Position numbers and translations under genes: made by a program. From positions 124,001 to 188,000 of the forward strand of contig NZ_CP150291.1 of NCBI RefSeq assembly GCF_038051985.1: 64,000 bases of DNA, written 5' to 3'. Within the stretch, counting starts at the first letter, position 1; every line of letters begins with the position of its first letter. The notes beneath the pieces were generated by a model. The model had not been told where the DNA came from and did not search any database. It saw only the letters and a list, made by a program, of their open reading frames with translations. Shown one piece after another: positions 28,041-60,100 of this stretch. This stretch comes from Solibacillus sp. FSL H8-0523. Lineage in GTDB: Bacteria; Bacillota; Bacilli; Bacillales_A; Planococcaceae.

Positions 28041-29369
28041 ATGAAGGTAATAATTATTGGTGGAGACGCGGCTGGCATGAGTGCGGCGATGGAAATCGTA
28101 CGTAACAATAAAACAGCAAAAATTTTAGTGTTAGAAAAAGGTGATGTCTATTCGTACGGACAGTGTGGGTTGCCATATGTCATTAATGGCAAGGTAAAGA
28201 GTGCGGATGAGTTAATCGCACGTGATGTCGAGGAATTCCGTTCGAAATATGGGATTGATGCGCGCATTTTTCATGAAGTAACTGCGATTGATACGAAATT
28301 GCGAAAAGTATGTGGGATTGATGTGAATAGCAATGAACTGTTTGAATTTGACTATGATAAATTATTAATTGCAACCGGTGCTAAGCCGACGATTCCACCG
28401 ATGGACAATGGAAAGTTAAAAGGGATTCATACGGTGAAAACGGTGCCGCAAATGGATGCATTAATGCGAGAGCTGCCGGATGTGAAGCATGTCACGGTTA
28501 TTGGTGGCGGCTATATTGGTTTAGAGGTGGCAGAAACGGTGCGTGAGCGTGGGCTTGAGGTTCGATTAATTCACCGTGGCAATCAGTTGATGCCAGCACT
28601 TGATCCGGAACTCGCACAACTGTTGCTTGAGGAAGCAAAAAAGCACGGCGTTGAAGTGCTGTTAAATGAAAATTCGATAGGCTTTGAAGGTACAACCCAT
28701 GTCGAGGGCGTGCGTACCGAAACAGGGGTTTACGAAACCGATTTAGTCATTGTCGCAACAGGTGTACGCCCGAATACGCAGTTTGCAGAAGGCTTTGCGA
28801 AGCTAGAAAACGGCGCGTTAATTGTCAATGATCATATGGAAACATCGATTGAGCATGTATATGCAGCGGGGGATTGTGCCACGCAGTATCACCGTATTAA
28901 GCGCCAGGTCGACTATTTACCGCTTGGCTCGACAGCAAATAAGCAAGGGCGCATCGCGGGGCTAAATATTGCTGGTTTCAACCAAATCTATAAAGGTATT
29001 GTCGGTACGTCGATATTAAAATTCTTTAATTTACACATTGGCATGACAGGCTTAACGAATCAAGCGGCAGATGAGCTAAATACACTTGTTGAGGCATATG
29101 CCATGACCGTCAATGATATTGCCAGCTACTATCCGAATGTACGCCCGATGAAAATGCGGATGTTAATCGATCAGCAAAGCCGTAAGCTACTTGGGTTGCA
29201 GGTTGTTGGGGAACATGGGGTTGATAAACGTATCGATGTATTTGCAACAGCACTTTATAATGACATGACGTTTGAGGATTTACTCGATTTAGATTTAGCG
29301 TACGCACCGCCATTTAGCGGTGTATGGGATGCCATTATGCAAATGCCGAAGCGCTACGGCAAAAAATAA
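28041..29369 (+). CDS. CoA-disulfide reductase-type FAD/NAD(P)H oxidoreductase
   Basis: A 442-residue flavoprotein of the pyridine nucleotide-disulfide oxidoreductase family, single-cysteine branch. It shows the FAD motif VIIIGGDAAGMSAA, the redox Cys42 in YGQCGLPYV (as in CoA-disulfide reductases), the NAD(P)H motif VTVIGGGYIGLEVAE, the second FAD motif VYAAGDCA and a C-terminal dimerisation domain. Expected to reduce CoA disulfide or a related persulfide with NAD(P)H. An upstream in-frame ATG at 28011 lacks a ribosome site; AAGGAG precedes 28041. It is monocistronic with a strong terminator. Confidence 0.9.
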   Translation: MKVIIIGGDAAGMSAAMEIVRNNKTAKILVLEKGDVYSYGQCGLPYVINGKVKSADELIARDVEEFRSKYGIDARIFHEVTAIDTKLRKVCGIDVNSNELFEFDYDKLLIATGAKPTIPPMDNGKLKGIHTVKTVPQMDALMRELPDVKHVTVIGGGYIGLEVAETVRERGLEVRLIHRGNQLMPALDPELAQLLLEEAKKHGVEVLLNENSIGFEGTTHVEGVRTETGVYETDLVIVATGVRPNTQFAEGFAKLENGALIVNDHMETSIEHVYAAGDCATQYHRIKRQVDYLPLGSTANKQGRIAGLNIAGFNQIYKGIVGTSILKFFNLHIGMTGLTNQAADELNTLVEAYAMTVNDIASYYPNVRPMKMRMLIDQQSRKLLGLQVVGEHGVDKRIDVFATALYNDMTFEDLLDLDLAYAPPFSGVWDAIMQMPKRYGKK

Positions 29370-29376
29370 ATACAAC

Positions 29377-29424
29377 GAAGAAGGCACGAGCTACTATTGG
29401 GAATAGCTCGTGCCTTCTTTTTTT
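29377..29424 (+). terminator. Terminator of the CoA-disulfide reductase gene
   Basis: GAAGGCACGAGCTA/TAGCTCGTGCCTTC, 14-bp stem, 10-nt loop, seven T. Confidence 0.95.
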
Positions 29425-29432
29425 CGTCCAGC

Positions 29433-29591
29433 ATATAGCGCCAACTCCTCGAACATTTCGGTCCCTCCTGCAAAAGTTTTGCAGGAGGGACCTCCAATGT
29501 CTAGGCTCACACGATGTGAGTCATGTCGGTCATACCACATGGATGTGGCATGACCGACCGGTGTTGAACGGGCGCTATATACCTTTTTTTT
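29433..29591. repeat. Cloverleaf-like palindromic element
   Basis: An outer 10-bp perfect inverted repeat ATATAGCGCC (29433-29442)/GGCGCTATAT (29571-29580) encloses three hairpins. (1) GGTCCCTCCTGCAAAA (29460-29475)/TTTTGCAGGAGGGACC (29477-29492), flanked by CATT/AATG. (2) GGCTCACA/TGTGAGTC (29504-29522). (3) GTCGGTCAT-a-CCACAT/ATGTGG-c-ATGACCGAC (29525-29558). Eight T follow at 29584. It directly follows a gene terminator, carries no credible gene, and looks like a mobile palindromic repeat or a structured RNA. Its family is not recognised. Confidence 0.75.
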
Positions 29592-29896
29592 ATGAAAGAG
29601 GTAATAGTCAAATGGTCCAAAATGAATGAATATTTATGCGTTTTTGCATGCGAGCAGCTAGGTATCCTGCACCGGTGGAATCATGAAAAAGTGTAAATAT
29701 TCGTTTGAACTTAAAACCACTATAGCGCAAAAATAATAACAAAATGCCATTTTAATGAAACTGTAAATGACATGTAATGTAGTCGGAATTCGCTTGAAGC
29801 CTATCGCAACAGGGGTTTATCCGCCATTTTAGTAAAAATACGCTGTCATGTGATGATATTTACATAACAAATAGATGACACATATGACAAACGAAT
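29592..29896. other. Gene-free stretch between the palindromic element and the yxdL promoter
   Basis: No open frame with a ribosome site. TGTCAT (29844-29849) and ATGACA (29875-29880) are an inverted pair, and TATAGCGC recurs at 29721. Otherwise nothing clear. Confidence 0.4.
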
Positions 29897-59579: not shown

Positions 59580-59613
59580 AAAAGAGGCATCCTAATGAAA
59601 GGATGCCTCTTTT
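59580..59613 (-). terminator. Terminator of the cold-shock protein gene
   Basis: AAAAGAGGCATCC/GGATGCCTCTTTT with an 8-nt loop; T-run on the minus strand. Confidence 0.93.
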
Positions 59614-59629
59614 AGCTACACTGTAAAAA

Positions 59630-59830
59630 TTAAAGTTTTACGATGTTTGTAGCTTGTGGTCCACGTTGGCCGTCTTCGATACCGAATTCAACTTTTTGAC
59701 CTTCGTCTAAAGATTTGAAACCGTCACCTTGGATAGCTGAGAAGTGAGCGAATACATCCGCGCCGCCTTCAACTTCGATGAAACCGAAACCTTTTTCTGC
59801 GTTAAACCATTTTACTGTACCTTGTGTCAT
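59630..59830 (-). CDS. CspA-family cold-shock protein
   Basis: A 66-residue OB-fold RNA chaperone. RNP-1 (KGFGFIE) and RNP-2 (DVFAHFS) motifs are both present, as is WFNAEKG. GGAGGTC lies before the ATG. About 120-170 nt of AT-rich sequence precede it, a typical length for csp leaders with temperature-dependent structure. Likely binds single-stranded RNA and DNA and melts secondary structure. Monocistronic. Confidence 0.95.
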
Positions 59831-60100
59831 TTAAATGACCTCCATTAATCGTATTTAATAAGATCATCCTATTTCTTCTAAAAGAAAAAAATTCACATAT
59901 TACAAAAAGTACTAAATAAAACACGAATACTCTTTGGAATAGGTGAATTTATAGTGTTCTTGTAAACATCTTATTAACCTTAGTATACATGAAAGAAATC
60001 CGTTTGTCTATAGCTGAGATTACATTTAATTTCCTTTAGCAAAATTGTTCAACGATTCCTTCGCTTTTTACACTAAACTAGTAGGTAACTTTATGATTTT
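59831..60100. other. Divergent gap between the cold-shock and ECF sigma genes
   Basis: AT-rich, no gene. The minus-strand half is the long leader and promoter region of the cold-shock gene; no clear -35/-10 pair could be fixed. Confidence 0.4.

Follow-up and report, generated by a model that had tools for sequence, protein, structure and literature searches.

A modular palindromic repeat behind transcription terminators in Solibacillus and its relatives

A cloverleaf-forming sequence in an intergenic gap of a Solibacillus genome (genus assigned by named relatives) belongs to a family of modular, apparently mobile palindromic repeats whose preferences for terminators and for one replication strand are unusually precise. 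Copies are dispersed, are present or absent at orthologous sites, follow terminators at spacings specific to each class of leader sequence, and are co-oriented with replication. With a probability of roughly two in three, we interpret the element as non-autonomous mobile palindromic DNA resembling MITEs or REP sequences, whose plus strand enters, always in one orientation, the T-tract that immediately follows an intrinsic terminator hairpin, and the cloverleaf as a frame (P1 and P2) that carries a module (P3+P4) related to the Bacillaceae-1 repeat. Such an element would offer a small and testable example of a mobile DNA for which transcription terminators are docking sites.

Structure and distribution of the element

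As originally predicted, a 148-bp structure bounded by a 10-bp palindrome and ending in eight T is present in the window, by which we mean the whole stretch of 64,000 nucleotides analysed (Table 1). The outer arms read ATATAGCGCC and GGCGCTATAT, the latter followed by ACC and the T-run. They enclose a first hairpin of 16 perfect base pairs, a second of 8 pairs including one G-U, and a third in which 15 of 16 positions pair. The three hairpins agree with the prediction, but the nesting ascribed to them does not hold, since they lie side by side in a multibranch cloverleaf. Predicted folding energies are −80.8 kcal/mol for the plus strand and −86.3 kcal/mol for the minus strand (z = −9.9 and −10.7, respectively), and none of 200 dinucleotide shuffles folds equally well on either strand. 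The covariance model R1, built from relatives, matches the window over a span wider than the outer palindrome (84.2 bits, for a copy that is itself one of the 25 sequences used to build the model). P2 is perfectly palindromic in the window and nearly so in copies L018 and L002. Most other aligned copies have an imperfect P2 with a longer loop, a pattern that template-switching correction of quasi-palindromes could produce.

The 452-aa gene before the gap reads as an FAD/NAD-type oxidoreductase and the gene after it as an ABC transporter, both named by reading. The element was also thought to lie behind a complete gene terminator, and an 18-pair hairpin at 29378-29419 does precede it, assigned to the minus strand in a pattern scan and to the plus strand (−28.0 kcal/mol) by our in-script finder. 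By eye, a similar hairpin follows the upstream gene in most orthologous loci. A mechanically called 101-aa open reading frame (29324-29629) crosses the element and is taken as a chance occurrence. No Rfam family reaches its cut-off over the element; the only match in the window at a gathering score is a cspA thermoregulator (RF01766, 97.3 bits) on the minus strand at 59580-59971. Directly behind the element, the stretch 29592-29730 (GAGGTNNTAGTCAAATGG...GCAGCTAGG...GGTGGAATCATG...TTTGAACTT...ACTATAGCGCA) looks conserved in 13 of the 15 orthologous loci read by eye, and is kept in S. faecavium, whose downstream gene differs. This stretch has no Rfam match even at E values up to 5 and is a candidate for a conserved RNA or leader.

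Table 1. Features of the element and its upstream terminator, in window coordinates
Feature	Position	Strand	Evidence
Intrinsic terminator and T-tract of the upstream oxidoreductase gene, insertion target side	29378-29425	+	18-pair hairpin, −28.0 kcal/mol
Whole element, long form without leader	29426-29589	+	R1 match, 84.2 bits
Frame stem P1, 5′ arm (family consensus GGCTAAAGCGCC)	29433-29442	+	Sequence, fold
Hairpin P2, a perfect 16-bp palindrome here	29460-29492	+	Fold, copy alignment
Optional module P3+P4 (hairpins 29504-29522 and 29525-29558)	29504-29558	−	RF01690 relation; absent in short copies
Frame stem P1, 3′ arm	29571-29580	+	Sequence, fold
Eight T, element end	29584-29591	+	Sequence

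The original prediction favoured neither a mobile palindromic repeat nor a structured RNA, and named a single copy without covariation as the outcome that would speak against it. BLASTN with the element against its own genome returns 33 hits, which we read as 25 distinct loci, and R1 finds 64 matches there, with two-sided changes in 36 of 43 pairs (see below). Two relatives, G150 and G151, carry 28 and 21 matches, and at least one occurs in 14 of the 16 genomes of the genus, the other two having none; because the frame stem is palindromic, R1 may in a few cases count both strands of one copy (one such case was seen). Family-wide, matches occur in 124 of 200 genomes and in 16 of 19 genera, with 13 candidates scored per genome, such that counts per genome are lower bounds. 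Common to the copies are a frame stem, GTCTAGGCTAAAGCGCC...GGGCGCTTTAGCGCTTTT, and an inner AGCCCC/GGGGCT stem. Most copies also have P2, and P3+P4 is added in some (alignment A1), giving short forms of about 121 nt and long forms of about 180 nt. Other combinations include P3+P4 without P2 (115 nt) and forms of 97 nt and 81 nt. A conserved leader often precedes GTCTAG and is either of type A (ATAAGAAAGTATAAAATTTT...) or of type B (GTTAAGGAAATTATAG...TTGTGGATAAC...). The sequence TTGTGGATAAC, frequent in type-B leaders (upstream of the element in L139 and in other leader-B copies), is presumably the complement of a DnaA-box-like sequence. In other genera, neighbouring copies lie head to tail on the same strand at G078:C1:4180292-4180782, G170:C1:104405-105028, G023:C1:787899-788140 and G045:C1:90144-90385.

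In keeping with a MITE, the element is short, non-coding, multicopy and intergenic. No open reading frame of at least 70 aa spans it in 65 copies, once frames lying largely within the element are dropped. As for terminal inverted repeats, the frame stem arms are present in nearly all of the 25 aligned copies, and a TIR-like pair, ATAAGAAA/CTTTTCTTAT, is seen by eye in leader-A copies only. Copy L003 with its flanks has no blastn match at E values up to 0.001 among 72,556 plasmid and 50,697 phage records. In the open-licence part of PubMed Central, we recognised no description of this repeat.

Orthologous sites differ in their occupancy. Among 16 genomes compared by eye at the window site (all loci but L091 read), the long element occurs only in its own genome; three others have a short stub hairpin, six an unlike insert of about 150 nt, three are empty and two differ further. 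In named records, S. palustris has the stub and S. faecavium the empty site. Likewise, among 12 genomes read by eye at the KH-rimM gap (a count that leaves out L207-L210), only its own has the element frame, and another palindrome family, as traces or full copies in either orientation, occupies nine of the other 11, with neither in two. At the locus of copy 1727539 the frame is missing in 12 of 16 genomes. There, a bidirectional terminator separates the copy of the element's own genome from those of G154 and G107, which have the opposite orientation; a remnant in G127 shares the side and orientation of the latter two. Of six genomes at the locus of copy 3044343, four are empty, G150 has 220 bp and the element's own genome has a different, short copy; G151, which agrees with G150 in the adjoining C-terminus, is among the empty ones. 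Occupancy in two genomes could stem from separate insertions or from a single one that has since been remodelled and, elsewhere, lost; some empty sites, too, could be losses. A target-site duplication is not definable by eye, the junctions lying in A/T-rich tracts. The empty sites, other inserts and opposite orientations at orthologous positions indicate mobility, and together with the many dispersed copies they give the mobile-repeat option good support.

Pairing of the stems and the Bacillaceae-1 module

The other option, a structured RNA, is not favoured. It would hold that the element is a non-coding RNA family, as Rfam treats Bacillaceae-1, that acts in trans or within 3′ untranslated regions, and its fixed orientation behind genes and sub-threshold match to RF01690 (see below) are what one would expect of such a family. 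Pairing is also conserved: in an alignment of 66 copies, two-sided changes affect 36 of 43 pairs, and the true pairing register stands far above slid registers. However, a selected RNA strand should favour G-U over A-C. Where Watson-Crick is the commonest type, the pairs include 69 G-U and 85 A-C (p = 0.23), even though the alignment was fitted to a G-U-preferring model; G-U is therefore not in excess, which speaks for a DNA palindrome. When all pairs are counted, G-U exceeds A-C (215 to 102), since at a few P2 positions most copies have G-U, which agrees with an RNA. For Bacillaceae-1, Watson-Crick pairs fill 445 of 459 cells, with two G-U and nine A-C (p = 0.07), in 27 of 30 loci (two contig-end loci and one with an extra base left out), although these are top-scoring matches, a choice that favours perfect pairs. 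By comparison, 26 tRNAs from the fetched loci have G-U at 29 of 556 drawn pairs, from a program that draws no A-C and is thus silent on that class. Further evidence against an RNA is the range of 0 to 64 matches within one genus, the lack of a sigma-70-type promoter-like site within the window element in a pattern scan, and the dispersed nature of the nearest Rfam family. We thus judge the RNA interpretation improbable. Counting G-U against A-C in covarying stems could be a simple way of telling DNA palindromes from RNAs.

The nearest family is Bacillaceae-1 (RF01690), which matches the minus strand of P3+P4 in six of the seven loci searched with 21.8-34.9 bits. No copy scored reaches the gathering cut-off of 35, the best being L008 at 34.9 and the window copy scoring 22.0 (29506-29569); the long copies L002 and L009 have no match at E values up to 5. 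RF01690, too, is a dispersed repeat: in a sample of 150 genomes of the order, 105 carry it, with one to at least 31 matches per genome (31 candidates scored in each). Three or more contexts recur among the flanks of the 30 best-listed loci; sorted by motifs chosen after inspection, the flanks are of type A (5), B (10), C (7), none (6) or contig end (2), and flanks of the present frame type occur at 5 of these 30 loci. Because frame-type flanks recur around RF01690, its homology to P3+P4 is supported by position as well as by score. In an ungapped test for inverted repeats, the median score of RF01690 flanks is 7.25, compared with 7.0 for each of the two controls, and 4 of 28 exceed the displaced control's 95% level; given this negative outcome, the claim that a module sits inside repeats rests on the recurring flank sequences. 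The stretch 29502-29558 also resembles TwoAYGGAY RNA (RF01731; 24.8 bits against a cut-off of 43) on the strand opposite to the Bacillaceae-1 match, and the two families may describe similar palindromes in mirror image. A passage of a 2022 survey names Bacillaceae-1 among abundant sRNA families (PMC9029176). The present data suggest that this catalogued family consists for the most part of a mobile DNA repeat module, in which case sRNA censuses would need correcting.

Terminators and the replication strand

To define targets and strands, we used 65 copies, comprising 51 of the genome's own 64 matches and 14 of the 21 in G151. An intrinsic terminator lies within 130 nt upstream on the element strand in 50 of these, as called by the in-script finder, compared with 3.4 of 65 for mononucleotide-shuffled upstream sequence. 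Terminators facing the element 3′ end are found in 9 copies and downstream terminators on the same strand in 12; no upstream terminator was detected in 15. The 50 copies thus have a group IIC-like insertion mode, 3′ of intrinsic terminators in the sense orientation. Distances depend on leader class, assigned by pattern. Leader-A copies (21) have a terminator in 17 cases, with 39-47 nt between T-tract and element in 15 of these, and leader-B copies (15) have one in 12, with 58-67 nt in 10. Among the 29 copies with no or another leader, 21 have a terminator, and the spacing is 5-16 nt in 17. This class-specific spacing implies that leader and element together start directly behind the T-tract. 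At 19 loci in 19 other genomes of the family, the terminator is upstream in 12 and downstream-facing in 4. At some of these loci a tandem copy lies in front, and its 3′ end is what was called as the "terminator", consistent with a rule that asks for a hairpin and a T-tract.

At their other end, elements abut convergent genes: in 26 of 32 such cases the stop codon falls between −5 and +9 nt relative to the element end. Start codons of co-oriented downstream genes fall in that range in 1 of 32. This proximity, together with a 3′ end formed by a stem and a T-run, would be expected if the element were an accessory bidirectional terminator or read-through insulator selected at convergent genes, its mobility being ancient and incidental. 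Such a role has little probability in our estimation, since most copies (50/65) already follow a terminator, most of the relatives read at the loci of copies 1727539 and 3044343 have an empty site, and the outer stem of the window copy closes a loop of more than 100 nt, unlike a typical terminator.

Orientation follows replication. With the replication terminus of the element's own genome set at 2.15 Mb, 58 of the 65 copies are in the leading orientation (46/51 in that genome, 12/14 in G151), compared with 336 of 469 open reading frames of at least 120 aa in the same stretches, some of which are counted repeatedly where a stretch holds several copies. When the upstream gene points the opposite way, 11 of 13 copies are still leading (28% expected, p = 4×10−5). 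Five of the seven lagging copies are oriented like their upstream gene (p = 0.02), which argues against replication as the sole cause of orientation and suggests that the terminator matters too. Copies shared by descent between the element's own genome (G000) and G151 were all kept in these tests, so that p-values serve as guides. GC skew of the stretches agrees: measured on the element strand, it is below zero for each of the seven lagging copies and above zero for every leading copy but one (−0.005). Split at half-genome, the matches listed are leading in 17 of 18 cases in G127 and in 5 of 6 in G107. In G103, which belongs to another genus and has 12 of its 13 matches listed, 11 of 12 are leading at the half-genome split, and 12 of 12, with a single strand switch, at the best split, chosen from the same data. 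This replication-strand rule resembles single-strand transposition.

It is very unlikely that terminator adjacency merely reflects survivorship after random insertion, with post-terminator copies alone tolerated: any small insertion would behave alike, and other palindromes do share the KH-rimM gap, but tolerance alone would not lead one to expect near-fixed spacing for each leader class, a 50 to 9 asymmetry or a replication orientation. In the mobile-DNA interpretation that we favour, the target would be a DNA hairpin that the terminator forms where the lagging-strand template is exposed. The element would enter as a single strand, presumably moved by some enzyme acting in trans, and selection would keep harmless sites behind a terminator and at a stop codon.

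Candidate mobilising enzymes and known systems

The element's own genome has one Y1_Tnp gene, preceded by a gene that we take to be comM-like. Within 1.5 kb on either side, the only 6- or 7-mer of the frame is one CTAGAC more than 1 kb away, so that the arrangement of a RAYT gene flanked by repeats is not seen. RF01690 lies within one of 11 Y1 loci searched in this and other genomes. Because copies do not flank the gene, and because Y1_Tnp is absent from the element-rich genomes G150, G151 and G127, a RAYT/Y1 transposase as resident mover is not supported. The genome also encodes four equal-scoring group II intron reverse transcriptases (one was read, at 421 aa) and has one other RVT_1 match. 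A reverse transcriptase as obligatory resident mover is not supported either, RVT_1 being absent from G150 and G151, although one could have acted in the past. Both enzymes are thus missing from these two genomes, and neither is linked to the element.

By eye, each of the four resident group II introns lies directly behind a terminator-like hairpin and T-tract, and all four are in the leading orientation; size and site lead us to read them as putative class IIC introns. One of them is directly followed by a tiny frame element (L264, 1739-1804), so that this intron separates the element from a terminator. Introns and elements, both placed behind terminators, thus use the same docking place. The element itself has no room for an intron-encoded reverse transcriptase, the 25 copies measuring 81-181 nt without leader. 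A SINE-like scheme is conceivable but unlikely, in which the element would home to terminators via the replication-coupled single-strand route of group II introns, possibly with their reverse transcriptase in trans, and would so spread modules, Bacillaceae-1 included, throughout the family.

A modular mobile palindromic DNA has parallels among known systems. In general description the element resembles bcr1, both being dispersed structured repeats of about 150 bp in Bacillales. The occurrence of bcr1 in the Bacillus cereus group is mentioned in a passage of PMC2267715. Group IIC introns, which insert at intrinsic terminators according to an excerpt of PMC4424553, share with the element the position behind terminators, as do the four resident introns. 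Unlike them, however, the element lacks a reverse transcriptase gene, and the intron ends seen are not those of the element. REP elements with RAYT, described in part of PMC3733652 as palindromic, intergenic and possibly moved in trans on single strands, resemble the element in each of these respects. In contrast, the element is longer and has several hairpins, and the only Y1_Tnp gene of its genome lacks flanking copies. The two hairpins of Bacillaceae-1 RNA correspond to P3+P4 on the element minus strand, with up to 34.9 bits. That family is listed as a likely RNA, not cis-regulatory, in a passage of Weinberg et al. (2010; PMC2864571), whereas here it is dispersed in 105 of 150 genomes and pairs almost without G-U. 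The pneumococcal BOX, RUP and SPRITE repeats, as portrayed in a section of PMC3049150, are likewise small and structured, modular in the case of BOX, subject to nested insertions and enriched between convergent genes. Those repeats mirror coding bias, with 60.8-63.3% on the leading strand (PMC3049150), whereas the present element is leading in 58 of 65 copies compared with 336 of 469 open reading frames, and its 5′ end lies at a fixed spacing behind terminators.
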